Positions 1-12,185 of a stretch of DNA of 18,940 nt are shown here, one piece after another. The notes under the pieces were generated by a model. The model was not told the DNA's origin. It saw only the letters and a program-made list of their open reading frames with translations, and searched no databases. Position 1 is the stretch's first letter. Every line of letters begins with the position of its first letter. This stretch comes from an uncultured Lachnospiraceae bacterium (GTDB lineage Bacteria > Bacillota_A > Clostridia > Lachnospirales > Lachnospiraceae), in NCBI GenBank assembly GCA_902780985.1, contig CACZHN010000020.1, forward strand, positions 1-18,940, given 5' to 3'. Position numbers and translations under genes: made by a program.

Positions 1-1
1 T

Positions 2-379
2 CAGGGAGAATGGGTCAAGTATACCGAGGAAGGACTTGCCGGAGATCAGATACTGGCGGTAGATCAGGCAACAACGGTGAACAATTCGGCAGTCATTACC
101 ATGGTTACATATGATATGGATGTAAATCTTGATACGATGGCAACCGAAAGCATGTCCTACTGTGAGTCCACGGGAGCCCAGAATGTTAAGGGCGGCAAGG
201 ACACTCTCGGAGGATTTTCCTGCAACAAGGTATCCTGTTATTATCCGGATTACAACAGGAATCTCGATGCATGGTACTTTGTAGCCGGTGACGGAAATTT
301 TCATTATATATCAGCCGAGTATTCACCGGATGATACATATGTAGCGGATCTGGTTGCACAATTCAGTATAGGAAAATAA
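2..379 (+). CDS. 3' end of an unrecognised gene (hypothetical protein)
   Basis: The reading frame is open from the first full codon of the window to a TAA at 377-379, so this is the C-terminal ~125 residues of a longer protein that starts upstream. No signal peptide or catalytic motif is visible in this part. The residues suggest a compact, soluble or exported beta-rich domain: aromatic residues alternate with polar ones, there are three cysteines, and the end reads YVADLVAQFSIGK. That ending resembles the tail of PsbP-like or other small exported domains of Gram-positive lipoproteins, but I cannot assign a family. An intrinsic terminator follows 5 bases after the stop. Function unknown. Confidence 0.7.
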   Translation, partial: QGEWVKYTEEGLAGDQILAVDQATTVNNSAVITMVTYDMDVNLDTMATESMSYCESTGAQNVKGGKDTLGGFSCNKVSCYYPDYNRNLDAWYFVAGDGNFHYISAEYSPDDTYVADLVAQFSIGK

Positions 380-383
380 AAAC

Positions 384-418
384 AGAGCAGGGAGCTTTCG
401 CTTCCTGCTCTTTGTCTT
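384..418. terminator. Bidirectional intrinsic terminator
   Basis: AGAGCAGG (384-391) pairs with CCTGCTCT (404-411). On the plus strand it is followed by TTTGTCTT. Read on the minus strand, the same stem is followed by GTTTTTATTTT, which is the better U-tract. It can therefore end both the upstream gene and a leftward transcript. Confidence 0.75.
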
Positions 419-443
419 GCAGAGTTAAATGTTTAGTTCGTTA

Positions 444-620
444 TCATCCTCCTTCAGACTCTATCTCCGGCGGTATCCTTAAAACGGACGTGCTTTCTGT
501 GATATATTTGTTTGCCAAAGATATGTCCCGTATGGTGATCTTCCGGTTCTCGGCGATTTCGGGCAGCCGAACTGCGAACCTTCGGACCTCGGTCGGATGT
601 TCACACACATTATAGAACAT
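444..620 (-). CDS. Possible small protein of 58 aa, or gene remnant
   Basis: An ATG at 620-618 opens a 58-codon frame ending in TGA at 446-444. The protein is charged and looks coding-like, for example EVRRFAVRLPEIAENRKITI in the middle. The stretch is GC-richer than the flanking intergenic DNA, and a terminator with a good minus-strand U-tract lies just past the stop. Against it, no Shine-Dalgarno sequence precedes the ATG and no family is recognised. It may be the C-terminal remnant of a longer gene. The rest of 380-735 holds only the mecA promoter. Confidence 0.25.
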   Translation of the reverse strand: MFYNVCEHPTEVRRFAVRLPEIAENRKITIRDISLANKYITESTSVLRIPPEIESEGG

Positions 621-683
621 GTGGTATAATATTTACAACAGGGAAAATAAAAATTATCATCACGAATTTTTCACACACTGCCT

Positions 684-712
684 TTGACCTTTATGTATGA
701 TTATGTTATAGT
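684..712 (+). promoter_or_regulatory. Sigma-A-type promoter for the mecA-like gene
   Basis: TTGACC (684-689), a 17-base spacer, then TATAGT (707-712). Transcription would start near 719, which leaves a very short leader before the coding region. Confidence 0.75.
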
Positions 713-746
713 AGGATAACTCTAAAAGTATTAAATGGTGAAGCGT

Positions 747-1448
747 ATGAAATTTGAACGTTTAGATGAAAATAAAATAAGATGCACCCTTACGAAAGCA
801 GAGCTTGCGGAAATGCATATAAATCTCACAGAGCTGGCTTACGGAACAGATAAAGCGAAGGCCCTCTTCAAGGAACTGATGGAACAGGCCAGAGATGAGC
901 TGGGCTTTGAGGTGGATGACATGCCGCTTATGATCGAAGCTATTCCGGTTAAGCCTGATTCTCTTATGCTTATCATCACTAAGGTTTCGAATCCTGATGA
1001 GATGAATTCCAGATTCTCAAAGTTCGCGGGACTTAATCCGAATGAGATCGTTGAGAACATGCTGGACGGTGAGCAGCAGCATCCGGAGCCTGAAGAAAGT
1101 ACATCTGTTGAAGATGCATGGAAGGAAGAAGCTTCCGATATAAATGTAAAGGATTCCACCTACATGGTATTCGCATTTGACAGCATCAAGGATGTTATCA
1201 GCGTAGCCCATGTGGTTACAGGCTATTACAAGAGCAACAACAGCCTTTACAGCAATCCTCATGACAACAGATTATATCTTGTAATGTACAGGAATCATAA
1301 TACTGAGGATGAGATGAAGCGTGTCGGACTGAAGACAAGTGAGTATGGCTTCTTCATTAAGACCATTTACAGCAGCAGAGATTTCTTCGATGAGCATTTC
1401 AAACTTATCATTAAGGATGAAGCTCTTCAGAGATTGGCGGAAATATAA
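747..1448 (+). CDS. mecA: MecA-family adaptor protein
   Basis: MecA proteins are adaptors that deliver substrates to the ClpC AAA+ unfoldase for degradation by ClpCP. The N-terminus, MKFERLDENKIRCTLT, is the typical family opening. A central acidic linker (about residues 105-135, rich in E, P and D) is followed by a C-terminal domain beginning YMVFAFDSIKDVISVA, as in the ClpC-binding half of MecA. At 233 aa the length is normal. An in-frame ATG at 735 would add four residues. I prefer 747 because it matches family N-termini and GGTG lies about six bases upstream. The gene has its own promoter at 684-712. Substrates cannot be inferred; in Bacillus MecA targets ComK. Confidence 0.85.
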   Translation: MKFERLDENKIRCTLTKAELAEMHINLTELAYGTDKAKALFKELMEQARDELGFEVDDMPLMIEAIPVKPDSLMLIITKVSNPDEMNSRFSKFAGLNPNEIVENMLDGEQQHPEPEESTSVEDAWKEEASDINVKDSTYMVFAFDSIKDVISVAHVVTGYYKSNNSLYSNPHDNRLYLVMYRNHNTEDEMKRVGLKTSEYGFFIKTIYSSRDFFDEHFKLIIKDEALQRLAEI

Positions 1449-1469
1449 AAAGTATATATGCATCCGTTC

Positions 1470-1569
1470 GAGAGAGTGCCTCCCGCATTTGCGGGTCGCA
1501 TAACTCACAGCACTTTTTTCTATCGCGTAGGCATTGAGGTGGACTGGTGAGTTGCGGGTGCTTTTTTTT
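1470..1569 (+). terminator. Structured element ending in a strong terminator
   Basis: CCCGCA (1483-1488) makes a local hairpin with TGCGGG just downstream. It could also pair with the TGCGGG next to the T9 tract near 1561. A second stem joins CGCATAACTCAC to GTGAGTTGCG with a small bulge. The two alternative partners for CCCGCA make this either the compound terminator of the mecA transcript or an attenuator-like leader of the nitroreductase gene 70 bases further on. No known riboswitch class was recognised. Confidence 0.5.
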
Positions 1570-1637
1570 TCGGTTCATGGGTTAATCTGAATATCAGAGA
1601 TATTAACAGCGTGCGCTGACTGAAAGGAGATAAATGT

Positions 1638-2162
1638 ATGAACGAAACATTAGCTACACTGGAGAAGAGAAGAAGCTGCAGAAAGTTCAAGCCTGATATG
1701 ATAAAACAGGAAGAGCTGGATGCCATTTTAAAGGCAGGTACATATGCGGCAACAGGTATGGGAAAGCAGAGTCCGATCATAATAGCTGTTACCGATAAGG
1801 CTGTTCGCGATGAGATATCCGAGGAGAACAGAAAGATCGGCGGATGGGGCGAAGATTTCGATCCGTTTTACGGAGCTCCTGTGATCCTTATAGTTTTGGC
1901 AAAGAAGGATGTGGCTACTCACATTTATGACGGTTCTCTTGTAATGGGAAATCTTATGAATGCTGCCGAAAGTCTGGGAGTTGCAAGTATCTGGATCCAC
2001 AGAGCAAAAGAAGAGTTTGAATCCGAATTCGGAAAGAATCTTCTGAAGAAGCTCGGAATAGAAGATGAGTATGAGGGAATAGGACATTGCGCCCTGGGTT
2101 ATGCTGAGGCTGCACCAAACGAAGCAGCCCCAAGAAAAGATAACTATATTTATCGCGTATGA
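1638..2162 (+). CDS. Nitroreductase-family FMN oxidoreductase
   Basis: This 174-aa protein is a compact member of the nitroreductase fold, which uses FMN and NAD(P)H to reduce nitroaromatics, quinones or similar acceptors. The FMN-phosphate contact motif RRSCRKF lies at residues 11-17. The segment GTYAATGMGKQSPIIIAV (about 33-50) matches the family's AP(S/T)..N.QP region, with G-K-Q in place of the usual N-x-Q-P. The C-terminal IGHCALGYAEAAP matches the family's GYP-like turn. The Shine-Dalgarno sequence AAAGGAG is well placed before ATG 1638. The gene is convergent with the next gene, the two stop codons being one base apart. The natural substrate is unknown. Confidence 0.85.
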   Translation: MNETLATLEKRRSCRKFKPDMIKQEELDAILKAGTYAATGMGKQSPIIIAVTDKAVRDEISEENRKIGGWGEDFDPFYGAPVILIVLAKKDVATHIYDGSLVMGNLMNAAESLGVASIWIHRAKEEFESEFGKNLLKKLGIEDEYEGIGHCALGYAEAAPNEAAPRKDNYIYRV

Positions 2163-2163
2163 A

Positions 2164-2454
2164 TTAATATCTCAGATACTGCATATAGTTTTCTACCATA
2201 TCCTTTGCGTCTTTAAGACCTGCACCGGATGCTTTTCTGCACTTATCGATAGCTTCGATCTTTTGACCGTGCTCGATCAGTGTACATATGGCCAGCTTGT
2301 CGTCGTTAGAGATCCTTGCGGCGAGGGTTGAAAGATAATCGGGTTGTTCGTTACCTTCAATTTTATTATCGGCCTTATTCATAGTTAAGGCTAATATGAT
2401 AAGAATGATAGCGAGAACTCCGACGCCTCCGGCGAAAAGGATGATTATACTCAT
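2164..2454 (-). CDS. Small membrane protein with ribosomal L7/L12-like C-terminal domain
   Basis: The 96-aa product has one N-terminal membrane segment (residues about 3-24) followed by a short linker. The C-terminal helical domain (about 52-96) reads IEAIDKCRKASGAGLKDAKD, matching the L7/L12 C-terminal pattern of K-x-R..TG-GLK-AK-xV. In true L7/L12 this domain recruits translation GTPases; here it would be tethered at the membrane facing the cytoplasm. AAAGGGGG precedes the ATG by about eight bases. Membrane-anchored L7/L12-CTD proteins are seen in Firmicutes, but their role is not established to my knowledge. The gene is divergent from the tRNA array promoter. Confidence 0.75.
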   Translation of the reverse strand: MSIIILFAGGVGVLAIILIILALTMNKADNKIEGNEQPDYLSTLAARISNDDKLAICTLIEHGQKIEAIDKCRKASGAGLKDAKDMVENYMQYLRY

Positions 2455-2522
2455 TTTTATATCCCCCTTTGAGTTGATTACTACCGTATTTTACCATAAA
2501 AAAATTTTTTAAAAAATAGTTG

Positions 2523-2551
2523 TTGACATCTATGGTGATATTTGATAGTAT
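2523..2551 (+). promoter_or_regulatory. Promoter of tRNA array, module A
   Basis: A perfect TTGACA (2523-2528), a 17-base spacer and TAGTAT (2546-2551) predict a start near 2558. No other convincing promoter is visible before the first tRNA. The RNA would begin with a hairpin: GAGAG 2559-2563 with CTCTC 2574-2578. Confidence 0.8.
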
Positions 2552-2666
2552 AACGCTTGAGAGAAGTGCCTGTCTCTCCGATTGTTATGCGCAAACGGAG
2601 AAATGGGCATATTTTTTTGGAAAAATCAGAAATTCCAATTTATACGAAAGAGGTACAAAAAAGCAA

Positions 2667-2828
2667 ATGAGAAGTTCAATAATGATGAACAGAATAGATA
2701 TCATTATAAGACCTGCTATAAGTGGGTTTGATTTCTCATGCTTTATTCAGGCGCAGAATAATATGGATATGGCCGATAAATTTGCGCAAATTAAAGATCA
2801 GGACAAAGACAGGTATAGGCGGAAGTAG
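2667..2828 (+). CDS. Leader peptide A (53 aa), rich in Ala, Asp and Met
   Basis: This small ORF lies between the module A promoter and a strong terminator just before tRNA-Ala. It contains 7 Asp, 4 Ala and 5 Met. The densest stretch, MDMADKFAQIKDQDKD (residues 33-48), has 5 Asp, 2 Ala and 2 Met. The tRNAs that follow are Ala, Asp and initiator Met. Codons 50-52 (TATAGGCGG, 2814-2822) can pair with CCGCTTATA (2860-2868), the 5' arm of the terminator. This is the layout of a translational attenuator. GAGGT ends 12 bases before the ATG, a long but usable spacing. A longer open frame extends to 2520, but those starts lie upstream of the predicted transcription start. No homology is recognised; the peptide itself may have no function. 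Confidence 0.6.
   Translation: MRSSIMMNRIDIIIRPAISGFDFSCFIQAQNNMDMADKFAQIKDQDKDRYRRK
2814..2822 (+). promoter_or_regulatory. Antiterminator strand of module A
   Basis: TATAGGCGG is complementary over 9 pairs (one G-U) to CCGCTTATA at 2860-2868, which is the ascending arm of the terminator. It overlaps the last codons of leader A, so a ribosome reaching the stop codon would cover it and let the terminator form. Confidence 0.55.
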
Positions 2829-2858
2829 GCTCTTTAGGCTTTGATAGTTGAGAGATTT

Positions 2859-2901
2859 ACCGCTTATATTCGGAAACCGAGATATAAGCGGTTTTTATTT
2901 T
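2859..2901 (+). terminator. Intrinsic terminator / attenuator A
   Basis: ACCGCTTATAT (2859-2869) pairs with ATATAAGCGGT (2882-2892). The stem is extended inside by TCGG-AAA-CCGA, and it is followed by TTTTATTTT. tRNA-Ala starts at 2902, directly at the end of the U-tract, so the tRNAs can only be made by read-through or antitermination from the promoter at 2523. Confidence 0.9.
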
Positions 2902-2970
2902 GGGGTGTTAGCTCAGTTGGGAGAGCGTCTGTTTTGCAGAAGGTCGCAGGTTCGAAGCCTGTATGCTCAA
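2902..2970 (+). tRNA. tRNA-Ala(TGC)-like, shortened anticodon arm
   Basis: The D arm (GCTC/GAGC) and T arm (GCAGG, TTCGAAG, CCTGT) are normal. Only 18 bases separate them after position 26, instead of 22. The anticodon arm folds as TCTG-TTTTG-CAGA, or a 3-bp stem with a 7-base loop. TTTGCA matches the tRNA-Ala(TGC) loop, and the 3-70 position is G-U, the alanine identity pair. It looks like tRNA-Ala with a 4-base deletion in the 3' side of the anticodon arm. Positions 1 and 72 (G and A) do not pair. No CCA is encoded. It may be non-functional. Confidence 0.55.
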
Positions 2971-3007
2971 TTTGGCCGGATAAACGGCCGAATAAAATAT
3001 TAATATA

Positions 3008-3038
3008 GAGTGAGAGAAAACAGGCACTTCTCTCACTC
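3008..3038. repeat. 11-bp perfect hairpin between tRNA-Ala and tRNA-Asp
   Basis: GAGTGAGAGAA (3008-3018) pairs with TTCTCTCACTC (3028-3038) around a 9-base loop, with no U-tract on the plus strand. Bases 3020-3035 are the exact reverse complement of 2558-2573, at the predicted 5' end of the array transcript. A shorter GC hairpin (GGCCG/CGGCC, 2974-2989) precedes it. Confidence 0.75.
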
Positions 3039-3062
3039 GCAATCCTAAAATAAATAAAATAT

Positions 3063-3134
3063 GGCTGTGTGGCGTAATGGTTAGCGTACCAGATTGTCTC
3101 TCTGGGGGTAAGGGTTCAATTCCCTTCATAGTCG
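3063..3134 (+). tRNA. tRNA-Asp(GTC)
   Basis: All four stems form. The anticodon arm is CCAGA-TTGTCTC-TCTGG, giving anticodon GTC, and the discriminator is G73, as expected for Asp. Position 37 is T, where a purine is normal. The acceptor has two G-U pairs. No CCA is encoded. Confidence 0.85.
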
Positions 3135-3137
3135 CTT

Positions 3138-3211
3138 CGCGGGATATTATCAATCGGAAGATAGCCGGGCCCATACCCCGGAGGTTGTCGGTTCAAGTCC
3201 GGCTCCCGCTA
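3138..3211 (+). tRNA. Initiator-like tRNA-fMet(CAT)
   Basis: The anticodon arm is CCGGG-CCCATAC-CCCGG. It has the three consecutive G-C pairs at 29-31/39-41 that mark bacterial initiator tRNAs. The acceptor is CGCGGGA with TCCCGCT, leaving C1 opposite T72 unpaired; normal initiators have C1 against A72. Position 33 is C rather than the near-universal T. The D stem is AT-rich and position 26 seems to be missing. A divergent second initiator is the best reading. Confidence 0.8.
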
Positions 3212-3254
3212 CTCAAATTATTACATTTAACATTTAAGAAAGGAAATGAAGACA

Positions 3255-3368
3255 ATGCGATCTACAGTAATGAAAAGACAATTTAAGATGATCCAGAATA
3301 TAATTCAGTTTTGCAATAATAGAAAAACTGGATCACTTATGATGTCTTTATCAGATCATGTGGATTAA
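3255..3368 (+). CDS. Leader peptide B (37 aa), rich in Phe, Gln, Cys, Asn, Arg, Met and Lys
   Basis: AAAGGA sits 10 bases before ATG 3255; an upstream in-frame ATG at 3246 lies too close to it. Residues 6-24 read MKRQFKMIQNIIQFCNNRK. Sixteen of these 19 belong to {F,Q,C,N,R,M,K}, and the other three are Ile. The downstream tRNAs up to 4870 are exactly Phe, Gln(TTG), Gln(CTG), Cys, Asn, Arg, Met and Lys. Both Gln codons occur (CAA and CAG), as do AAT, TGC, AGA, AAA and AAG. The last codons (3348-3363) can pair with the following terminator's 5' arm. I read this as a regulatory leader peptide; no homology is recognised. Confidence 0.7.
   Translation: MRSTVMKRQFKMIQNIIQFCNNRKTGSLMMSLSDHVD
3348..3363 (+). 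promoter_or_regulatory. Antiterminator strand of module B
   Basis: TTATCAGA (3348-3355) pairs perfectly with TCTGATAA (3411-3418). GTGG (3360-3363) pairs with CCAC (3404-3407). This uses up the 5' arm and loop of terminator B. The segment is the last six codons of leader B before the stop. Confidence 0.65.
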
Positions 3369-3402
3369 TACGTCTAAGCAGCAATAATATTGTTTTGTTG
3401 AG

Positions 3403-3438
3403 ACCACTTGTCTGATAAGGGCAGGTGGTTTTTCTTTT
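3403..3438 (+). terminator. Intrinsic terminator / attenuator B
   Basis: ACCACTTGTC (3403-3412) pairs with GGCAGGTGGT (3420-3429) with two G-U pairs, followed by TTTTCTTTT. tRNA-Phe begins at 3439, right after the U-tract, with no room for a promoter. Confidence 0.85.
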
Positions 3439-3512
3439 GGAAAGATAGCTCAGGTTGGTAGAGCGGCAGGTTGAAGCCCTGCGCGTCGGAGGTTCGATTC
3501 CTTCTCTTTCCA
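3439..3512 (+). tRNA. tRNA-Phe(GAA)
   Basis: The acceptor GGAAAGA/TCTTTCC is perfect. The anticodon arm is GCAGG-TTGAAGC-CCTGC, the T loop TTCGATT and the discriminator A. No CCA is encoded. It is the first tRNA of module B. Confidence 0.93.
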
Positions 3513-3520
3513 CTTTATAG

Positions 3521-3593
3521 TAGGGTGTCGTACAAATGGTAAGTACACGGGACTTTGACTCTCGTAATATGGGTTCAAATCCCGTCGCCCTTG
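3521..3593 (+). tRNA. tRNA-Gln(TTG)
   Basis: The anticodon arm is CGGGA-CTTTGAC-TCTCG and the D stem GTAC/GTAC. The discriminator is G, as usual for Gln. Positions 1 and 72 are T-T and do not pair; known Gln tRNAs have a weak U1-A72. Confidence 0.87.
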
Positions 3594-3596
3594 TAT

Positions 3597-3667
3597 AGCC
3601 GAATAGTGTAAAGGTATCACGTCTGACTCTGACTCAGAAGATATAGGTTCGATTCCTGTTTCGGCTG
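3597..3667 (+). tRNA. tRNA-Gln(CTG)
   Basis: The acceptor is AGCCGAA/TTCGGCT, the anticodon arm TCTGA-CTCTGAC-TCAGA, and the discriminator G. It follows the TTG isoacceptor by three bases; together they read CAA and CAG, both of which occur in leader B. Confidence 0.92.
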
Positions 3668-3668
3668 T

Positions 3669-3738
3669 GTACCGTAGGTAGCGGTTGCCGTCCGGTCTGC
3701 AAAATCTGATTCAGTGAGTTCGACTCTCACACGGTACT
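3669..3738 (+). tRNA. tRNA-Cys(GCA)
   Basis: The acceptor GTACCGT/ACGGTAC is perfect, the anticodon loop is CTGCAAA, and the discriminator is T73, the cysteine identity base. The D arm is short. The anticodon stem has one C-T mismatch and one G-U pair. Confidence 0.87.
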
Positions 3739-3744
3739 TAATAT

Positions 3745-3816
3745 TCCCGGGTAGAACAATGGTAGTTCGGCTCCCTGTTAAGGAGAAGGTTGTAGGTTCG
3801 AGTCCCATCATCCCAA
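3745..3816 (+). tRNA. tRNA-Asn(GTT), acceptor stem unpaired
   Basis: The D stem GAAC/GTTC is perfect and the anticodon arm is GCTCC-CTGTTAA-GGAGA, giving anticodon GTT. The acceptor strands TCCCGGG and CATCCCA do not pair (three C-C oppositions), and the T stem has one A-C mismatch. It is either a decaying gene or an unusual tRNA-like RNA. It lies 22 bases before the ATP-grasp gene. Confidence 0.65.
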
Positions 3817-3835
3817 CTTATGATCAAGGAGAAAA

Positions 3836-4618
3836 ATGATGAAAACAATATGGCTCAAAACAAAATATGATACAGAAATTGATATGGAGATACCTCACAG
3901 TCAAAACTTCGCAAATGCAATGTATGGTTTTATGGAAATGGGAGCTAGGATTGAGAGATATCACAAATTACAAGATATATATGACAGAGTCAAGAGAGAA
4001 GATATAGTCCTGGATTATATAGATCAGTGTAATACCGTATTTAATAAGTTTGGAGTATCACCTTATATTCCGGATTATCCTGAAGTCCTTTCCGAATTCC
4101 TTGGAAGGAAGATCTGGCATGATTCAATGAATAAGTTTTCCTGTGACGAGAAAAAATGGAGTGCCGGATACTTTGTAAAACCGGTCAAAGAAAAAACGTT
4201 TACAGGACATGTGATCAGAAGCATATCCGATCTTATGGGATGCGGAAGTCATTGTGAAGATTATGAAATACTTGTAAGTGATGCGCTGGATATCGCAGCA
4301 GAATGGAGAGTATTTATTCTTTATGACAGAATACTCGATGTCAGACCTTATAGGATGATATTGGATAGTAATAGTTATAGACATCATTTCGATCCGGAAA
4401 TCCTTGATCAGATGGTTTCAGCCTTTACAAATTGGGAAGACCGTCCGATGGCATGCAGTATGGATATATGCTGCACTAAGGATGGCAGGACACTCCTTGT
4501 TGAAATGAATGATGCATATGCGCTTGGCTGTTATGGATTAAACAGCGTTATGTATGCAAGATTTATCTCGGCAAGATGGAGCCAGCTTCTCGGAGTAGAG
4601 GATGAATTTAAGTTTTAG
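3836..4618 (+). CDS. ATP-grasp protein, R2K clade (family 3-like)
   Basis: ATP-grasp enzymes use ATP to join a carboxylate to an amine or thiol through an acyl phosphate. The 260-aa sequence has the R2K pattern. GYFVKPVKEKTFTG (residues 111-124) carries the lysine-bearing RAGNYA strand. EWRVFI follows at 156-161. DICCTKDGRTLLVEMNDAYA (210-229) has D210, E223 and N225 placed as Mg-ATP ligands. The clade includes eukaryotic CDC123 and many phage and bacterial proteins proposed to act in conflicts; the substrate here is unknown. No signal peptide is present. AAGGAG precedes ATG 3836 by four bases and ATG 3839 by seven, so 3839 may be the real start. It sits inside the tRNA array between tRNA-Asn and tRNA-Arg, apparently cotranscribed. 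A role in acting on tRNA or translation is only an inference. Confidence 0.8.
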   Translation: MMKTIWLKTKYDTEIDMEIPHSQNFANAMYGFMEMGARIERYHKLQDIYDRVKREDIVLDYIDQCNTVFNKFGVSPYIPDYPEVLSEFLGRKIWHDSMNKFSCDEKKWSAGYFVKPVKEKTFTGHVIRSISDLMGCGSHCEDYEILVSDALDIAAEWRVFILYDRILDVRPYRMILDSNSYRHHFDPEILDQMVSAFTNWEDRPMACSMDICCTKDGRTLLVEMNDAYALGCYGLNSVMYARFISARWSQLLGVEDEFKF

Positions 4619-4644
4619 GAGCCCGGACTCCGGGTCCCTAGTTT
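4619..4644 (+). terminator. GC hairpin after the ATP-grasp gene (weak terminator or processing site)
   Basis: CCCGG-ACT-CCGGG, extended by GGA/TCC with a bulge, starts right at the stop codon and is followed by only CTAGTTT. It echoes the ORF-hairpin-tRNA order of the leader modules, but I found no clear antiterminator partner. Confidence 0.4.
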
Positions 4645-4718
4645 ACAGGCGTAGCTCAATGGATAAGAGTATCGGATTTCTAATCCGACGGTTGAGGGTT
4701 CGAATCCCTTCGCCTGTA
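4645..4718 (+). tRNA. tRNA-Arg(TCT)
   Basis: The acceptor ACAGGCG/CGCCTGT and the anticodon arm TCGGA-TTTCTAA-TCCGA are both perfect. It reads AGA and AGG; AGA occurs twice in leader B. No CCA is encoded. Confidence 0.94.
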
Positions 4719-4720
4719 CT

Positions 4721-4794
4721 TGCAGTGTAGCTCAGTTGGTCAGAGCAGGATCTTCATACGGTCAAGGTCGTGGGTTCAAGTCCCATCACTGTAA
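4721..4794 (+). tRNA. tRNA-Met(CAT), elongator type
   Basis: The anticodon arm is GGATC-TTCATAC-GGTCA with loop TTCATAC, as in Bacillus elongator Met. It lacks the three G-C pairs of initiators. The acceptor TGCAGTG/CACTGTA pairs fully, with T1-A72. tRNA-Ile(CAT), which is lysidine-modified, is a less likely alternative. Confidence 0.85.
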
Positions 4795-4797
4795 TAA

Positions 4798-4870
4798 GAG
4801 TGTGTAGCTTAGTTGGCAGAGCAACGGGCCTTTAACCCGTAGGTCGAGAGTTCGAATCTCTCTACACTCA
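4798..4870 (+). tRNA. tRNA-Lys(TTT) with C33
   Basis: The acceptor is GAGTGTG/TACACTC and the anticodon arm is ACGGG-CCTTTAA-CCCGT. The loop differs from the normal CTTTTAA by having C at position 33. All stems are otherwise intact. Confidence 0.9.
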
Positions 4871-4896
4871 CTTTCAAAGATATACCGCAGGTTTAC

Positions 4897-4924
4897 TTTA
4901 CTATTTGTGTTCATGCAGTATAAT
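4897..4924 (+). promoter_or_regulatory. Promoter of tRNA array, module C
   Basis: TTTACT (4897-4902), a 16-base spacer and a perfect TATAAT (4919-4924). The predicted start is near 4931, leaving a 27-base leader with GAAAGGA before leader peptide C. Confidence 0.7.
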
Positions 4925-4957
4925 AAGCACATAAGATTGAGAAAGGAAAACAAAGCA

Positions 4958-5050
4958 ATGAACATATTCAGAAACTTACATTCATATAACAGTTACTCGC
5001 TCCTCGGCTACGAATCCGAACGTAGTAAAGGATCAATTGTAATGCAGTGA
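4958..5050 (+). CDS. Leader peptide C (30 aa), rich in Leu, Glu, Tyr and Ser
   Basis: GAAAGGA (4941-4947) lies 10 bases before the ATG. Residues 7-23 contain SYNSYSLLGYESERS, preceded by Leu-His. Of these 17 residues, 13 are Leu, Glu, Tyr or Ser, exactly the four tRNAs that follow (Leu AAG, Glu TTC, Tyr GTA, Ser GCT). Codons fit too: CTC-CTC in tandem for Leu(AAG), GAA twice, TAT/TAC three times, AGT twice for Ser(GCT). The stop codon lies within a 16-bp potential antiterminator (5044-5062 with 5081-5097). Own promoter, Shine-Dalgarno and terminator are all visible. Regulatory leader peptide is the best reading. Confidence 0.75.
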   Translation: MNIFRNLHSYNSYSLLGYESERSKGSIVMQ

Positions 5051-5062
5051 AACAGTAAGTGG
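5044..5062 (+). promoter_or_regulatory. Antiterminator strand of module C
   Basis: GCAGTGAA (5044-5051) pairs with TTCATTGC (5090-5097). GTAAGTGG (5055-5062) pairs with CCGCTTAT (5081-5088). These two 8-bp helices, with three G-U pairs, flank a small internal loop and compete with the first terminator. The leader C stop codon is at 5048-5050. Confidence 0.65.
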
Positions 5063-5079
5063 ATGAAGTACAGATACGA

Positions 5080-5112
5080 ACCGCTTATGTTCATTGCATA
5101 AGCGGTATTTTT
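5080..5112 (+). terminator. Intrinsic terminator / attenuator C1
   Basis: ACCGCTTATG (5080-5089) pairs with CATAAGCGGT (5097-5106), followed by ATTTTTG. The stem core ACCGCTTAT is shared with terminator A, 2.2 kb upstream. Confidence 0.88.
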
Positions 5113-5142
5113 GTGGAAGAATGTCAAAATGATATTTAGATG

Positions 5143-5174
5143 CGGAGATACTGTGAAGTATCTCCGTATTTTTT
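5143..5174 (+). terminator. Second terminator of module C
   Basis: CGGAGATAC (5143-5151) pairs perfectly with GTATCTCCG (5158-5166), followed by TATTTTTTAT. tRNA-Leu starts seven bases after it. Two terminators in tandem guard this block; I saw no antiterminator partner for this one. Confidence 0.88.
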
Positions 5175-5180
5175 ATGCCT

Positions 5181-5265
5181 GTGCGTATATCCGAATTGGT
5201 ATAGGAGCTGCACTAAGGATGCAGTCGGGATAATCCCGGTGGAGGTTCGAGTCCTCTTACGCACA
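5181..5265 (+). tRNA. tRNA-Leu(AAG)
   Basis: Class II tRNA. The acceptor GTGCGTA/TACGCAC is perfect, the anticodon arm is CTGCA-CTAAGGA-TGCAG, and the long variable arm contains CGGGA-TAA-TCCCG. The wobble base is A34, rare in bacteria outside tRNA-Arg(ACG), and would need deamination to inosine to read CTC efficiently. Confidence 0.92.
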
Positions 5266-5273
5266 CGAAATAT

Positions 5274-5347
5274 GGTCCCATCGAATAAATGGTCAGTTCG
5301 TCGGCCCTTCAAGCCGGAAATGTCGGGTTCGAGCCCCACTGGGATCA
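5274..5347 (+). tRNA. tRNA-Glu(TTC) with C33
   Basis: The acceptor GGTCCCA/TGGGATC pairs with one G-T. The anticodon arm is TCGGC-CCTTCAA-GCCGG, giving anticodon TTC with C at position 33 instead of T. The outer T-stem pairs are mismatched (TC opposite AC). Confidence 0.85.
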
Positions 5348-5361
5348 CTAAAAGAATATAT

Positions 5362-5445
5362 GGATGGATAACCCGTAATTGGTAGCGGTGCTGACTGTAA
5401 ATCAGTTGTCTTCGGGCTCTGGAGGTTCAAGTCCTTCTCCGTCCA
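5362..5445 (+). tRNA. tRNA-Tyr(GTA)
   Basis: Class II. The acceptor is GGATGGA/TCCGTCC and the anticodon arm is GCTGA-CTGTAAA-TCAGT. The variable arm is closed by a TTCG tetraloop, and the discriminator is A. Confidence 0.93.
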
Positions 5446-5449
5446 CTAT

Positions 5450-5540
5450 GCCTGTATAAGCCTAATATGGTAAGGCAGCAGATTGCTAATCTGTGAGTAA
5501 TCAGGATTCTGGTGTGTTGGTTCGAGTCCAGCTGCAGGCG
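5450..5540 (+). tRNA. tRNA-Ser(GCT)
   Basis: Class II. The acceptor is GCCTGTA/TGCAGGC, the anticodon arm GCAGA-TTGCTAA-TCTGT, the variable arm about 21 bases, and the discriminator G, as in other Ser tRNAs. It reads AGT and AGC. It is the last tRNA of the array. Confidence 0.93.
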
Positions 5541-5559
5541 CTTATATATAATGCCGTAA

Positions 5560-5636
5560 GTGAAACTCGGGGACGGGGGTCAAGTATTCATTTTGAATAC
5601 TTGCCCCCCGTCCCCGAGTCTCACTTTTTATAATTT
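5560..5636. terminator. 30-bp GC-rich hairpin ending the tRNA array
   Basis: 5560-5589 and 5595-5624 are inverted repeats matching at 28 of 30 positions around an ATTTT loop. On the plus strand TTTTTATAATTTT follows, making a terminator for the array. On the minus strand it lies just past the rpiB stop, but with a poor U-tract. The length and near-perfect symmetry also fit a dispersed palindromic (REP- or MITE-like) repeat. Confidence 0.8.
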
Positions 5637-6062
5637 TGAGTACATTGAAATTCTTCTTATATGACGTTCGTCATTTGAGAATGGTGTGTCTACGAACTTG
5701 TCGACGATCATGCAGGCAAGGCCGGCGCCGATAACTCTTGCTCCCATACAGACAACGTTGGCGTTGTTGTGGCTTCTGGTTGCTTCTGCCGAGAATACGT
5801 CGTGGCAGAGAGCTGCGCGTATGCCGTCAACCTTATTGGCTGCCATTGACATTCCGATACCTGTGCCGCAGATGAGGATTCCCAGATCTGCTTCTCCGGC
5901 GGTTATAATGTCGGTGAGCTTCTTTGCGTAAACAGGATAATCACAGGATGCCGGACTGTCTGTTCCCACATCGATTATCTCGAATCCGCGGCTCTTTAAA
6001 TGCTCTATAACTTCCTGCTTCATGGTATATCCGCCATGATCGGATCCTATTACAAGTTTCAT
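5628..6062 (-). CDS. rpiB: Ribose-5-phosphate isomerase B
   Basis: RpiB interconverts ribose 5-phosphate and ribulose 5-phosphate in the cytosolic pentose phosphate pathway. The 144-aa product opens MKLVIGSDHGGYTMK, with the family's D8-H9 pair. The nucleophile region GILICGTGIGMS has Cys65, and the second conserved His is in SHNNANVV (H98). The length is normal. AAGGAGG is about eight bases before the ATG. It is the last gene of the leftward murT-gatD-sua5-rpiB group, 49 bases after sua5; sua5 and rpiB neighbour each other in other Firmicutes as well. Some LacAB/RpiB members act on other sugar phosphates (galactose 6-phosphate, allose 6-phosphate), which cannot be excluded. Confidence 0.92.
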   Translation of the reverse strand: MKLVIGSDHGGYTMKQEVIEHLKSRGFEIIDVGTDSPASCDYPVYAKKLTDIITAGEADLGILICGTGIGMSMAANKVDGIRAALCHDVFSAEATRSHNNANVVCMGARVIGAGLACMIVDKFVDTPFSNDERHIRRISMYSKL

Positions 6063-6111
6063 CAGTGTAACCCTCCTTGATATATTGCTTTTCCCTTGTA
6101 ATTATACCTTC

Positions 6112-7185
6112 TTAAACTTTCTCAACCCTGTGTCCTGCTGCTTTAAGCAGGCGGTTCATTATACTGAAGCCCAGCTCGTCTCTGTCGAAACTTTCGCTGA
6201 AGATAACCTCTGCACCTATTCTATCACATTCACGGAGCGCCGCATATAGTCTGGCGGCAACTGTTGTACCTGCTCCGGATTCCCCCAAAGTGATAACGTG
6301 CTTGCAGTTGTATCTTTCGGCCTTGTCATTTGTGGTAAGTACCGCCGCAATCCTGCCTTCGGCCTCGGCACTGTCTGTTTCGCTGTTGATCTTATCGATC
6401 ACGGCGTCCGATACGTCGCCGGTTTCGGAATCTTCTATAATAGTAAGCTTTCCGACAGGAGCGTAGTGAGTATATTTCATTCCCGGAGCTTTCGGTCTCA
6501 GGTTCGGATCCGGCTCGATGATGGCCTTATCGATCTTAACCTCTCCCAGAACTCCTTCAAGCATATGCTTTGTTATATAACCCGGTCTTAGGATGACAGG
6601 TATATCACCGGTCATATCTACGATGGTGGATTCGATGCCGATACCTACGGCACCTCCGTCCAGGATCATATCGATACGTCCGTTCATATCCTCGATGACG
6701 TGCTCCGCCAGAGTCGGTGAAGGACGTCCGGATGTATTTGCGGACGGAGCGGCGATGAGAACACCGCTTTCTCTTATGAGGCGCGCCGCATCCGGATGGG
6801 ACGGCATTCTGATGGCTACCGTATCCAGACCGCCTGTTGTGGCATCCGGAACTTCCGGCTTCTTCTTAAAGATTACCGTAAGAGGTCCCGGCCAGAAGGC
6901 TTCCATAAGAGTGCGTGCCTTGTCGGGAATCTCCCTTGCAAGTCGCTCCACATCGGACATATCCGCTATATGTACTATCAGAGGATTGTCGGAAGGGCGC
7001 CCCTTGGCTGCATATATTTTCGCTGAGGAATCGGCATTCAGTCCGTCGCCCCCCAGACCGTATACGGTTTCTGTGGGGAAGGCTACCAGTCCGCCGTCCT
7101 GCAGTATCCTGCATGCAGTAGGAAATGCATCGCTGTCCGTTACATTTCTGATAATCGTATTTATCTTTTTCTCTTCATTATCCAT
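6112..7185 (-). CDS. sua5: L-threonylcarbamoyladenylate synthase (Sua5/YwlC type)
   Basis: The enzyme makes threonylcarbamoyl-AMP from threonine, bicarbonate and ATP. This is the first step of the t6A37 modification of tRNAs that read ANN codons. The 357-aa length shows the long Sua5 form rather than the short TsaC. The YrdC domain (about residues 10-210) has FPTETVYGLG (36-45), KGRPSDNPL (61-69) and SANTSGRPSPT. The linker has PKAPGMKYTHYAP, and a C-terminal Sua5 domain follows. The start lies five bases after the gatD stop, so the two are probably cotranscribed. Array tRNAs such as Lys, Asn, Arg(TCT), Ser(GCT) and Met would be potential t6A substrates, but no direct link is shown. Confidence 0.93.
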   Translation of the reverse strand: MDNEEKKINTIIRNVTDSDAFPTACRILQDGGLVAFPTETVYGLGGDGLNADSSAKIYAAKGRPSDNPLIVHIADMSDVERLAREIPDKARTLMEAFWPGPLTVIFKKKPEVPDATTGGLDTVAIRMPSHPDAARLIRESGVLIAAPSANTSGRPSPTLAEHVIEDMNGRIDMILDGGAVGIGIESTIVDMTGDIPVILRPGYITKHMLEGVLGEVKIDKAIIEPDPNLRPKAPGMKYTHYAPVGKLTIIEDSETGDVSDAVIDKINSETDSAEAEGRIAAVLTTNDKAERYNCKHVITLGESGAGTTVAARLYAALRECDRIGAEVIFSESFDRDELGFSIMNRLLKAAGHRVEKV

Positions 7186-7190
7186 ATGAA

Positions 7191-7949
7191 TCAGTCTCCG
7201 CTCATCTGGTCTGCGAGAACCTTTTCAAGAACGGTGTCGTGAGCCGCTTTTTCGAAATTATCTTTAAGAGCCGGCATGATGGCCGTTCCGTATTTACGCT
7301 TTAATGCGGTTTCGAGAAGAAGGTCGGCAAAATCCGGATTCTTCGGAAGTACAGGACCGTGGCTGTAGGTTCCGAATACATTCTTATAATGTACGCCTTC
7401 TGTGCCGTCCTCGCCGTTGTTTCCGAAGCCCTTCAGTATTTTTCCGAGAGGCTCCACTCCGGATCCGAGATAGGTTTTACCGCTGTGGTTCTCGAAGCCC
7501 ACAACGCTGCTTCCGCCGATACTATTTCCGAGCTTGAAAGCGTAATTGCCGATCATTCGTGTGTCGCTTCCCTTGGTGTAGAGATCTACCGCACCCAGGA
7601 ACTCGCATTTCTTTCCGTCATGGGTCTCGTAATAATGGCCCATCATCTGATATCCGCCGCAAATGCAGAGGAAGGTTTTTCCGTCCTCGATGGCAGCCTT
7701 GATATCGGCTCCCTTTCCGCCGGCAAGATCTTCCAGGAGAACTCCCTGCTCGAAGTCCTGTCCTCCGCCTACGAAGAAGATATCGAAGTCGGTGAGAGAC
7801 ATTTTCTCTCCGAGATGAAGCTCGACAACCTCGGCTTTGATGCCGCGCCATACGAGACGCTGCTTCAGGCAGAGGGTATTTCCTCTGTCACCGTAAAGAT
7901 TAAGCACCTCCGGATAGAGGTGGCATATTTTAAGTGATTGTTCTGACAT
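7191..7949 (-). CDS. gatD: Lipid II isoglutaminyl synthase, glutaminase subunit GatD
   Basis: GatD releases ammonia from glutamine and passes it to MurT, which amidates the D-Glu of the lipid II stem peptide to D-isoglutamine. This is a class I glutamine amidotransferase-like domain of 252 aa. The nucleophile is Cys97 in CICGGYQMMG and the catalytic His is H197 in GTYSHGPVLPKN. The start at 7949 is chosen because MSEQSLKICHLYPE matches GatD N-termini and AAAGGA lies just upstream. An upstream in-frame ATG at 7994 would overlap murT by 41 bases. The gene begins four bases after the murT stop, so the two are translationally linked. Confidence 0.93.
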   Translation of the reverse strand: MSEQSLKICHLYPEVLNLYGDRGNTLCLKQRLVWRGIKAEVVELHLGEKMSLTDFDIFFVGGGQDFEQGVLLEDLAGGKGADIKAAIEDGKTFLCICGGYQMMGHYYETHDGKKCEFLGAVDLYTKGSDTRMIGNYAFKLGNSIGGSSVVGFENHSGKTYLGSGVEPLGKILKGFGNNGEDGTEGVHYKNVFGTYSHGPVLPKNPDFADLLLETALKRKYGTAIMPALKDNFEKAAHDTVLEKVLADQMSGD

Positions 7950-7953
7950 GACT

Positions 7954-9351
7954 CTATCCTTTCCAGAATTCTGATTTTCCTGACAGCTCGCCAAGAACGT
8001 GTCTCAGAGAGAGCATGGAAGTATAGTTTGGAAGTACGAAAACAGGAAGTCCTGTTTCGGTAAATGCATCTATAAGTGAATTGTCATCCGGCTTGAGGAT
8101 TATCTTATCCTCCGGTACGTCGGCGTACTTCAGACGAAGCTGCATATCTTCGCCTCGGGTTCCGGTGACATATATCTTCTTACAATTCTCATCACGGCAG
8201 ACTTTTTCGTAGTCCGCATCCCATATCCAGGAAATGTCGTGGCCGTCGGCAGTCTTGTCATTGAGACAGAAGACAGCAACATAGTCCTGACTCAGTGAAG
8301 CCAGATAGGACAGTGCCTGATTGCAGCCTGCCGGGTTCTTAACCAGGATCATCTGGATATCGGTGTTCTTATAATTGAAGGTTTCCATTCGTCCGAAGCT
8401 TGAACTTACCTTTGTAAGCGAACGGAGAATGTACTTTATATTAAAGCCGGCGGTCTTAAATGCGCTGATGGCCGCCAGTGCGTTGTATACGTTGTAAAGA
8501 GCGGGAAGGCCGATGCGTACGTCCTTATGCGTTTCATTTCCCTTATTGTCGGTATATCTTAGGCTTACTGAAGTTCCCTTTGCGGTGAGTGACTTGATGG
8601 CGGTAACCGCAACATCAGGAGTCATTCTCTTGTAACCGCACTCAGGACAGTAGAAGTCGCCCAGATGTGCATAAGTATGGAAGTTATATTTATATTCGGT
8701 GCCGCACTTTATGCAGTACTTGGCATCCGAAAGAGTGTCTGCAGCGTCGCCGCCGGTTGTGGTATCTATTCCGTAATAAACCACCTTGTTCGGAACATCG
8801 CCGGCAAGGGATGATGTAAGGGAACAGTCCGCATTCAGACAAAGAGTGCTTTCCGGAACCAGGCTTACACCTTCGCGGATAGCGGAAAGTGTGTGCATAA
8901 CCTCGCCGTAGCGATCCAGCTGATCACGGAAAAGATTTGTTACAAGGATAACCTTCGGGCGAATGAGAGGAACAACTCTCTTAAGTGCGCCTTCGTCGCA
9001 CTCGATGATAGCGTAGTGCTTCTTTGCGTGTCCGAGAGGTCCTGCGTTGCAGGTAAATTCGGCGGTGATACCCGTAAGAAGATTGGCTCCGCTTCGGTTG
9101 GAAAGAACGTCGATGCCTGCAGAGTGAAGCGCCTGACGCAGCAGTCCGCAGGTTGTGGTCTTTCCGTTGGTACCTGTGACAACGATTATCTCCATATCCG
9201 AGGATACGACCTCGAGAATCTTCTTATCAAAAAAGAGGGCTGCACGACCGGGCAGGGTTGTACCTCCGCGCTTCATGATTCGAAGGGCGGTCCTGCAAAG
9301 CTTACATGCAGCAACTGAAAGAAATGTAGTTATTACATTATGACGAGACAT
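7954..9351 (-). CDS. murT: Lipid II isoglutaminyl synthase, Mur ligase subunit MurT
   Basis: MurT is a Mur-ligase-like ATPase that forms a complex with GatD at the inner membrane face and amidates lipid II. The 465-aa product has the Mur ligase P-loop VTGTNGKTTT (58-67). A Cys4 zinc ribbon (C213, C216, C235, C238) lies in the central domain, as in known MurT proteins. The C-terminal MurT-specific domain (formerly DUF1727) spans roughly 330-460. A minus-strand promoter with TTGAAA, 17-base spacing and TACGAT (9419-9391) lies upstream. It is the first gene of the four-gene leftward group. Confidence 0.95.
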   Translation of the reverse strand: MSRHNVITTFLSVAACKLCRTALRIMKRGGTTLPGRAALFFDKKILEVVSSDMEIIVVTGTNGKTTTCGLLRQALHSAGIDVLSNRSGANLLTGITAEFTCNAGPLGHAKKHYAIIECDEGALKRVVPLIRPKVILVTNLFRDQLDRYGEVMHTLSAIREGVSLVPESTLCLNADCSLTSSLAGDVPNKVVYYGIDTTTGGDAADTLSDAKYCIKCGTEYKYNFHTYAHLGDFYCPECGYKRMTPDVAVTAIKSLTAKGTSVSLRYTDNKGNETHKDVRIGLPALYNVYNALAAISAFKTAGFNIKYILRSLTKVSSSFGRMETFNYKNTDIQMILVKNPAGCNQALSYLASLSQDYVAVFCLNDKTADGHDISWIWDADYEKVCRDENCKKIYVTGTRGEDMQLRLKYADVPEDKIILKPDDNSLIDAFTETGLPVFVLPNYTSMLSLRHVLGELSGKSEFWKG

Positions 9352-9390
9352 AATTTTACCTCAAACTATCTTAGTAACTTCTGAACTATC

Positions 9391-9419
9391 ATCGTATCAC
9401 AAACAGATTTGCATTTCAA
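9391..9419 (-). promoter_or_regulatory. Promoter of the murT-gatD-sua5-rpiB group
   Basis: On the minus strand TTGAAA (9419-9414) and TACGAT (9396-9391) are separated by 17 bases. The predicted start is near 9384, 33 bases before the murT ATG. Confidence 0.65.
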
Positions 9420-9440
9420 TTTAATGTTATAACGCTGAAA

Positions 9441-9475
9441 ATTTACATAATTATTTGGGCTTGATTTACATAATT
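9441..9475. repeat. Two direct repeats upstream of the wall-hydrolase promoter
   Basis: ATTTACATAATT occurs at 9441-9452 and again at 9464-9475, 23 bp apart (about two helical turns). They end five bases before the -35 box, a usual place for an activator. On the minus strand each contains TGTAAA, which fits the WalR half-site TGTWAH. Confidence 0.6.
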
Positions 9476-9480
9476 GGTCG

Positions 9481-9509
9481 TTGACAAATATGTTACGTGT
9501 TGTTATAAT
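9481..9509 (+). promoter_or_regulatory. Consensus promoter of the SH3-NlpC/P60 gene
   Basis: TTGACA (9481-9486), a 17-base spacer and TATAAT (9504-9509), both perfect. The start is near 9516, giving a leader of about 90 bases that ends in a hairpin (ACCACAA 9566-9572 with TTGTGGT 9577-9583) and then AGGAGG. Confidence 0.9.
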
Positions 9510-9514
9510 CCTTT

Positions 9515-9531
9515 TGTAACAGATTTGTAAC
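9515..9531 (+). promoter_or_regulatory. WalR-like operator (TGTAAC-N5-TGTAAC)
   Basis: TGTAAC at 9515 and 9526, separated by exactly five bases, match the known WalR (YycF) consensus TGTWAH-N5-TGTWAH. Further single half-sites occur at 9491 (TGTTAC), 9501 (TGTTAT) and 9558 (TGTAAC). NlpC/P60 wall hydrolases are classic WalR targets. The site covers the transcription start, which would favour repression. Binding is inferred only. Confidence 0.5.
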
Positions 9532-9608
9532 AAATCGGGTTACATTCGTAAAAGAAATGTAACAAACCACAATATTTTGTGGTAAATAGAATCCTAGGAG
9601 GTTACATA

Positions 9609-10943: not shown

Positions 10944-11441
10944 ACATCTTAACATCTGACTATGAACAATTCCCTAACCAACCAACTACCAAGGATTATG
11001 TCGTTCAGCAGGCCATGTAAGAAACATTCATAACGTCAGCGCTTCGCGCTTAACCGTATCCTTCGGAGACTCGTTATTTCATGTTCCTCACATGACCCTG
11101 TTCCACAGGGCATGTGTTGATAAACAAACCTGTTTAGAAAACAAGTTTTCACACAGATTTGTTTATCAACACAGCCTGCTGAACGAAAAAAGTGCAAAAC
11201 AAATAGTCAGAATATTCGATTTCGACAGTTTGTTGTGCAACATGCACAACAAAGTTCGCGAATGGTTAACAATAATGCACGGAAACCTCCTTTTTAGTGT
11301 GTTGATAACTCACATTAAAAATGTGTTTATTTAAGGTTATTCACAAAGTTATCAACATTATCAACAAAATCGTGCTTTACATAACGCGAAACCAAAGTTG
11401 AAAACGAGTGAAAAAAATTTGTTAATTCTTACGAAAATAAA
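10944..11441. other. Gene-free region with DnaA-box-like sites and inverted repeats
   Basis: No convincing gene is present. Six 9-mers fit TTATNMACA: minus at 11115-11123 and 11300-11308, plus at 11163-11171, 11337-11345 (TTATTCACA), 11349-11357 and 11358-11366. Large inverted repeats include GTGTTGATAAACAAA (11114-11128) with TTTGTTTATCAACAC (11158-11172), TTTGTTGTGCA (11229-11239) with TGCACAACAAA (11243-11253), and TGTTGATAACT (11300-11310) with AGTTATCAACA (11347-11357). Smaller hairpins sit at 11080-11094 and 11096-11110. It could be a replication-linked element; neither dnaA nor dnaN is in the window. Confidence 0.5.
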
Positions 11442-11476: not shown

Positions 11477-11531
11477 AATAAAACCGTTTTTGAGATTTGA
11501 ATTGTCTGACAAAAATAATGCAAATCAATCA

Positions 11532-12158: not shown

Positions 12159-12185
12159 AATAGAATAACATTGACTTAATCCAGC

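Follow-up and report, generated by a model that had tools for sequence, protein, structure and literature searches.

Analyses of an 18,940-nucleotide (nt) stretch of DNA from an uncultured Lachnospiraceae bacterium (assembly GCA_902780985.1, contig CACZHN010000020.1, positions 1 to 18,940; hereafter the window) revealed three blocks of transfer RNA (tRNA) genes, each preceded by a short leader open reading frame (ORF) and an intrinsic terminator. We judge it probable, at about 85%, that the unit ahead of each block, an ORF rich in the amino acids of the block's own tRNAs and a terminator that can pair with the ORF end, acts as a ribosome-mediated attenuator that would turn the tRNA genes on when the cognate tRNAs are missing or uncharged. 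Comparison of sequences supports this reading well, through the match between leaders and tRNAs, the terminators, their pairing with the cognate leader, the position of the signal within the leaders and the divergence of the array tRNAs in one related genome. The leaders, terminators and tRNAs of the window are as follows.

2667-2828, plus strand: leader ORF 1, 53 amino acids
2811-2825, plus strand: candidate antiterminator strand 1, within the last codons of leader 1 (duplex -15.3 kcal/mol)
2859-2892, plus strand: terminator 1 (-18.9 kcal/mol)
2902-2970, plus strand: tRNA-Ala (TGC) (Rfam; anticodon by reading)
3063-3135, plus strand: tRNA-Asp (ARAGORN and Rfam)
3138-3212, plus strand: tRNA with CAT anticodon (ARAGORN and Rfam), initiator-like by the G-C pairs of its anticodon stem (by reading)
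3255-3368, plus strand: leader ORF 2, 37 amino acids
3347-3363, plus strand: candidate antiterminator strand 2 (duplex -16.6 kcal/mol)
3402-3430, plus strand: terminator 2, ahead of block 2 (-17.0 kcal/mol)
3439-3738, plus strand: tRNA-Phe, Gln (TTG), Gln (CTG) and Cys (ARAGORN and Rfam)
3751-3809, plus strand: tRNA-Asn (GTT), its extent being that of a partial Rfam match (anticodon by reading)
4645-4871, plus strand: tRNA-Arg (TCT), Met (CAT) and Lys (TTT) (ARAGORN and Rfam)
4958-5050, plus strand: leader ORF 3, 30 amino acids
5045-5063, plus strand: candidate antiterminator strand 3, spanning the stop codon (duplex -13.5 kcal/mol)
5080-5106, plus strand: first terminator ahead of block 3 (-17.0 kcal/mol)
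5139-5170, plus strand: second terminator ahead of block 3
5181-5541, plus strand: tRNA-Leu (AAG), Glu (TTC, 5274-5347, Rfam only), Tyr and Ser (GCT) (ARAGORN or Rfam)

Rfam indicated 14 tRNAs and ARAGORN 12 between positions 2902 and 5541, and the Rfam scan of the window at the gathering score revealed no RNA family besides tRNA. The tRNAs for Ala, Asn and Glu, called by Rfam only, were added by hand for the window alone. Shine-Dalgarno matches precede all three leader ORFs. An earlier reading of this DNA, made from the letters and the list of ORFs only (the sequence-only reading), had proposed the shared plan of short ORF, terminator and tRNAs; it is borne out in the three blocks and was found in 36 of the 39 loci analysed. 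That reading had counted 16 of 19 and 13 of 17 core residues of leaders 2 and 3, respectively, as matching their blocks, and both counts are correct on re-reading. It had also placed the tRNAs 0-8 bases behind the U-tracts. The distance is indeed 0 to about 6 bases (tRNA starts at 2902 by Rfam, 3439 and 5181 by ARAGORN); the tRNAs of block 3, however, follow the second terminator at 5139-5170, which had been overlooked.

Related arrays were collected with two baits. The R2K-clade ATP-grasp protein encoded within block 2 gave 33 genome loci, of which 8 carried two or more ARAGORN tRNAs, that is, few arrays; in one of these, L005 (Lachnospiraceae bacterium AC2031), the three leaders of the window recur in an array of 24 tRNAs. 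Since a small helix-turn-helix (HTH) gene adjoins the tRNAs in arrays L004, L007, L016 and L011, alignments of this gene (A2 and A3) served as the second bait, which enriches for arrays that carry it. HTH matches were found in 15 viral-contig loci, in 82 of 397 family genomes (E 1e-24) and in 5 of 391 genomes of the class (E 1e-28), the query genome being counted among the 5. The 60 HTH regions taken from the family search are the better-scoring of 97 listed places, and 24 of them carry at least two ARAGORN tRNAs, so that members of the HTH family occur outside arrays as well; no HTH gene was noticed in the window array, where no profile was run for it. The tRNA scan covered the collection other than the class-search loci L177-L181.

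From 63 loci with two or more tRNAs, 8 were skipped (the copies L038, L039, L040, L042 and L084, the fragment L055 and the tRNA pairs L002 and L003) and 16 were dropped as shorter copies, leaving 39. Leaders were extracted by a script blind to amino acids, which required an intrinsic terminator upstream of tRNAs and, ending near it, an ATG ORF that was 18-80 codons long and had a Shine-Dalgarno match; ORFs lying within long genes were then discarded, and tRNAs allotted to leaders, by fixed rules. The 36 leader-bearing loci, 30 of them Lachnospiraceae genome loci, yielded 50 leaders, and removal of 6 that were more than 70% identical left 44 non-redundant pairs of leader and block. L074 lay outside the leader scan, and L234, a partial relative, was read and is uncounted. 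For window leader 3 the rule chose the second, stronger terminator, and the first (5080-5106) was substituted by hand in the pairing, folding, coverage and core tests.

Comparison of leader composition with the downstream tRNAs showed that, over whole leaders (n=44), 36.4% of residues belonged to the amino acids of the leader's own block (24.3% expected). The mean z score was 1.90 compared with 0.01 (standard deviation 0.17) for shuffled pairings, none of 20,000 of which did as well. The result held at a stricter redundancy cut of 42% identity (n=25, z 2.30), with a single leader per locus (n=31, z 1.56) and with the window left out (n=41, z 1.83), each again with 0 of 20,000 shuffles reaching the score, while the +1 and +2 frames carried no signal (z -0.09 and -0.18). 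The prediction that leader composition would track tRNA identity across related arrays was thus confirmed with (n=44) and without (n=41) the window, and chance composition was ruled out by the shuffles together with the frame control. Coverage was nearly complete: 186 of 187 block specificities were present in the block's own leader, compared with a shuffled mean of 160.1 (standard deviation 3.8, maximum 173). All 20 amino acids had a higher mean frequency in leaders whose block has a matching tRNA (n=33, some amino acids being represented by few blocks).

Single leaders passed the 0.05 level against other leaders in 24 of 44 cases over the whole leader and in 29 of 44 over the core. The best core matches were found in L063 block C (17/17), L075 leader 3 (15/15), L005 leader 2 (20/21) and L011 (14/15), and L141 carries a Met-rich leader before two tRNA-Met and an Arg-rich leader before two tRNA-Arg. 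Block 2 of L005 has a tRNA-Trp and its leader two W, while block 2 and leader 2 of the window have neither. The H of L005 leader 3 was considered as a second matched change and dropped, since window leader 3 has H too. The window leaders alone are modestly enriched, with 15/52, 19/36 and 14/29 own-block residues for leaders 1, 2 and 3 (5.9, 13.6 and 9.0 expected from other leaders; binomial tails 4.9e-4, 0.047 and 0.040) and core matches of 12/38, 15/21 and 13/19; the strength of the composition case therefore rests on the relatives.

The signal is not spread evenly along the leaders. From codon 7, a core start chosen after the shared N-termini had been seen, to the last codon that would free the antiterminator strand, which was located by pairing alone with an assumed ribosome reach of 14 nt, own-block residues made up 53.3% (26.7% expected; 0 of 20,000 shuffles), and the leader's own z score was positive in 44 of 44 leaders. 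Codons beyond this core carried no signal (23.9%, 23.3% expected) and codons 2-6, where leaders of one type have a recognisable common N-terminus, gave 10.5% (17.5% expected). The signal is thus limited to positions where a stall of the ribosome would not cover the antiterminator strand, as an attenuator would require.

Pairing of the leader end with the 5' arm of the terminator was stronger for cognate than for non-cognate partners (mean -16.15 and -12.68 kcal/mol, respectively; 44 leaders, 0 of 20,000 shuffles). The pairing that had been proposed for the final codons or stop region was recovered in all three window leaders, and for the set the duplex test indicated an alternative antiterminator exclusive of the terminator. 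The terminator arm varies between arrays and the leader end varies in step with it (for example in leader 1 of the window, L005 and L075; by reading). In an equilibrium model in which the RNA upstream of and beneath the ribosome is removed, the terminator of window leader 2 had a probability of 0.17 when the ribosome was stalled at cognate codons, compared with 0.97 for a ribosome at the stop and 0.93 in the absence of a ribosome; the corresponding values for window leader 3 were 0.08, 0.98 and 0.98. Such switching was modelled in 16 of 44 leaders, whereas each of two codon/spacer shuffles gave a single switching leader out of 44. The proposal that a stalled ribosome means on and a finished leader off fits the modelled behaviour of window leaders 2 and 3 and not that of leader 1, which did not switch.

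Several results weigh against an attenuator, and leader 1 accounts for two of them: its terminator probability was 0.93 stalled, 0.94 at the stop and 0.93 without a ribosome, and its duplex with its own terminator beats that with just 30% of the other terminators. Across the set, 28 of 44 leaders showed no equilibrium switch, and a co-transcriptional variant that favoured the stalled state in 44 of 44 is biased, since a ribosome at the stop leaves a shorter piece of free RNA. Of the two terminators ahead of block 3, the second stayed formed in every modelled state (0.98 in the window). As to composition, window leader 3 contains H and block 3 has no tRNA-His, W occurs in 7 leaders whose block shows no tRNA-Trp (n=33), and an Rfam rescan of four such loci (L039, L045, L121 and L144) revealed no tRNA beyond those of ARAGORN. 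Leader B of L063 matches in 11 of 30 core residues, and L164 and L142 lie below expectation over the whole leader. Matching at the level of codons, by choice of isoacceptor, was weak and contributes little (readable Leu 43/71, Arg 50/66 and Ser 64/85, compared with 0.54, 0.66 and 0.65 with other blocks' tRNAs). Shuffled pairings correct only partly for shared ancestry, and the leader peptides are unconserved as sequences (pooled pN/pS ratio 0.90, from 16 non-independent pairs). Leaders were lacking in three of the 39 loci, L026, L119 and L123; of these, L119 has one tRNA per strand and is not an array, while L123 has no leader within 300 bases upstream of its tRNAs on a contig that begins there. 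L026 is a pair of tRNA-Arg and tRNA-Tyr, as are L002 and L003, which were excluded before the count and in which inspection by eye likewise revealed no leader.

The sequence-only reading had further held that lack of initiation would free the antiterminator. This was not supported at equilibrium, where the terminator formed without a ribosome (0.93, 0.93 and 0.98 for window leaders 1, 2 and 3), and the co-transcriptional variant, in which the 5' arm of the terminator was captured at 0.78, 0.47 and 0.50, respectively, does not decide the matter. The second terminator of block 3 has a counterpart in L005 (6957-6982; 0.90-1.00 formed in the modelled states). In a possible cascade, the 3' arm and U-tract released from the first terminator could capture the 5' arm of the second (-10.3 kcal/mol for the window and -14.6 kcal/mol for L005).

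Sequence inspection upstream of the leaders bears on the order of the gates. Two elements are relevant here.

2523-2551, plus strand: promoter-like site of block 1 (TTGACA, 17 nt, TAGTAT), from sequence
4881-4895, plus strand: promoter-proximal dyad TATACCGCAGGTTTA upstream of leader 3

The last tRNA of block 1 lies 42 nt from leader 2 and no promoter is visible in this interval, so leader 1 would be expected to control both block 1 and block 2, with gates 1 and 2 probably in series. Leader 1 residues compared with the union of blocks 1 and 2 gave 37/52 in the window (23.2 expected), 41/55 in L005 (28.7) and 49/55 in L075 (36.5). Leader 1 had been matched to the Ala, Asp and Met tRNAs of its own block; the enrichment is there (15/52), and the match is now refined to blocks 1 plus 2. 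Block 3, with a promoter-like site and the dyad ahead of leader 3, appears to be under its own promoter. The dyad pattern TATAYYnnnnGTWKA, derived from the same sequences in which it was counted, precedes 25 of 44 leaders (expectation from shuffles 0.06) and overlaps the -35 region; it is possibly the operator of the HTH protein. A dyad-like promoter is also kept in the Lachnoanaerobaculum-type loci L002, L003 and L026, where a tRNA follows directly, without leader or terminator.

In the proposed mechanism, RNA polymerase would initiate at the array promoter and a ribosome would start the leader. With all cognate tRNAs charged, the ribosome would reach the stop region and mask or pass the antiterminator strand, the terminator would fold and the block would be off. 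With a cognate tRNA in short supply, the ribosome would stall upstream, the antiterminator strand would capture the 5' arm of the terminator and the polymerase would enter the block; the newly made tRNAs would then relieve the stall and close a negative feedback loop. The folding states, the polarity and the feedback are what we infer from the comparisons above. If the mechanism holds, these would be the first tRNA genes known to us under leader-peptide attenuation, and the sensor would read the same tRNAs that its operon supplies, in a closed loop. The tRNA arrays would gain a testable function, and the leaders would offer ready-made sensors for the depletion of many tRNAs, reporting when and which are lost in these bacteria, for example in conflict with phages or toxins. 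A literature search that covered few subscription papers and no preprint server did not turn up any account of tRNA genes controlled by leader-peptide attenuation.

The most likely purpose, to which we give about even odds, is that of an on-demand spare set: divergent backup tRNAs with RNA-repair and R2K enzymes, silenced by leader peptides that would read the tRNA pools of the cell block by block, so that loss of any tRNA, for example by anticodon cleavage, would induce just the block that can replace it. The comparison of L005 array tRNAs with the other tRNAs of the same genome (G002) bears on this purpose. The tRNA search of that genome lists at least 63 matches, 150 of 183 candidates having been scored. 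Among 39 housekeeping tRNAs from 20 regions, a counterpart with the same anticodon was found for 20 of the 24 array tRNAs, at 40-66% identity, and the other 4 had no such counterpart among the 39 compared. By this comparison the L005 array tRNAs are a divergent second set in this one related genome. The anticodon stems and loops of several of them differ from those of their housekeeping counterparts, which would suit escape from anticodon nucleases. The RNA ligase RtcB is encoded in related arrays (L004, Pfam PF01139; L007, L016 and L045 by reading), which fits tRNA repair; none was seen in the window, where no RtcB profile was run.

The same attenuator might instead answer in nature to ordinary amino-acid starvation, with charging low and no tRNA lost, which we regard as a distinctly less likely signal. 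To the ribosome a hungry codon is identical in both cases, and classical leaders sense starvation. Starvation would not be cured by extra tRNA, however, and the leaders mix amino acids (187 specificities in 44 blocks, about 4 per block) in a way that suits no single biosynthetic signal; RtcB and the R2K enzyme, moreover, share the arrays. Somewhat less likely still is an origin of the arrays in phages, as codon-supplement sets, the leaders being inherited control parts of a mobile element. Such arrays do occur on IMG/VR contigs (L062-L065 and L074/L075), one of them with a GOLLD RNA, yet 30 of the 36 leader-bearing loci are genome contigs, and a phage source would account for the origin of the arrays and not for the match of each leader to its own block.

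A reverse polarity, in which a cognate stall favours termination and the leaders shut tRNA synthesis down, is improbable. Several antiterminator strands are located far ahead of the stop and could become accessible again once the ribosome has moved past them (by reading), but in the switching leaders the model made the terminator less probable with the ribosome at cognate codons than with it at the stop, and the cognate codons precede the antiterminator strand. It is more improbable again that the short ORFs encode functional small proteins whose composition matches the tRNAs as a by-product or by chance: the recognisable N-terminus common to leaders of a type speaks for it, and the 0 of 20,000 shuffles and the lack of signal in codons 2-6 and past the antiterminator strand speak against it; a conserved small protein was rejected on the pN/pS ratio of about 0.9. 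Direct sensing of uncharged tRNA by the leader RNA, in the manner of the T-boxes widely used in Firmicutes, was rejected as the least likely of all, since no T-box match was obtained at the gathering score in the window or in the scanned parts of L005 and L075 and the match lies in the codons of a single frame.

Among known systems, the attenuators of the trp, his, leu and ilv operons consist of a short translated ORF rich in regulatory codons, an intrinsic terminator and an overlapping antiterminator. The units described here resemble them in the short ORF with its Shine-Dalgarno match, the enriched codons for the amino acids of the operon and the terminator before the genes. They differ in that they would control tRNA genes, so that the product is the sensed molecule, in that up to eight amino acids are matched at once (for example in L063 block C) and in that the modelled antiterminator works as a switch of two strands, one of which lies within the ORF end or adjoins it.

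The tRNA array units are abundant in Firmicutes, and many mycobacterial ones carry genes for an XRE regulator and an HNH protein (PMC5966550). Our arrays share with them the dense tRNA cluster (14 tRNAs in the window, 24 in L005), judged by density rather than by the formal threshold, while the parts of that paper available to us contain no term match for leader or attenuation. Control of the RtcBA RNA repair operon is tied to tRNA damage, the sensor being RtcR, a CARF protein that binds tRNA fragments (PMC7790460, as far as available); RtcB is likewise encoded in related arrays, whereas their proposed sensor is leader translation and replacement tRNAs would be made. Phage tRNAs have been proposed, in the portion of the paper available, to replace depleted ones and so evade anticodon nucleases (PMC10264068). 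The array tRNAs would likewise be extra tRNAs serving as replacements, but most array loci are genome contigs and induction is predicted block by block.

A protein-coding gene within the array, and the element at the array end, are the following.

3836-4618, plus strand: gene for the R2K-clade ATP-grasp protein, within block 2 (PF18299, E 3.7e-41)
5559-5630, plus strand: long inverted repeat and T-run at the array end, from sequence

At E 1e-10 or better, 577 relatives of the R2K protein were obtained, and at E 1e-30 it was found in just 7 of 397 family genomes; the named genome loci encoding relatives are mostly from Lachnospiraceae. Its AlphaFold model (pLDDT 89) retrieved general ATP-grasp ligases in a fold search, among them D-Ala-D-Ala ligase, LysX/ArgX and RimK, with query-normalised TM scores of 0.36-0.59 among the 50 matches listed. 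R2K.2 and R2K.3 proteins are predicted to be peptide ligases, according to the part of PMC4431377 available to us. A viral scan with one protein gave no match.

Other insertions and neighbours were noted in related arrays. L063 encodes inside its array a DUF2828/DUF7788 protein (6348-7850) with a weak von Willebrand A match. L075 carries the GOLLD RNA (RF02032, 174.5 bits; 3657-4093) within its array, and this RNA contains a tRNA gene. L074 and L075 are 26-tRNA arrays with identical tRNA order, located on two IMG/VR contigs (55 kb and 253 kb). The record MT839421.1 (L078) bears the label Bacteriophage sp.; it contains the leader of L004 together with an HTH 98.8% identical to the one in L004, and is perhaps bacterial DNA in a virome. 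In L004, the tRNA at 7584-7671 was called Phe by ARAGORN with an odd anticodon position and may be a tRNA-Arg carrying an insertion, so that some of the specificities used here, though few, may be incorrect. L005 harbors hairpin-rich insertions in or between its array tRNA genes (5256-5420, 6342-6540, 7080-7200 and 7693-7850, by reading), some of which apparently split tRNAs.

Two hairpins of block 1 in the window are related to each other.

2558-2618, plus strand: 5' hairpin region with U-tract
3008-3038, plus strand: hairpin between tRNA-Ala and tRNA-Asp, its loop side complementary to the 5' hairpin

Positions 2558-2573 of the 5' hairpin and 3020-3035 on the loop side of the inter-tRNA hairpin form a perfect 16-nt complement. 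A search of L075 gave no complement of at least 10 nt. The same complement was identified in L005 at 4346 and 4935, and comparison of the inter-tRNA hairpins of the window and L005 revealed paired changes that preserve the stem, and an identical loop. The two hairpins may make a loop-loop contact, or a spacer RNA may act in trans.

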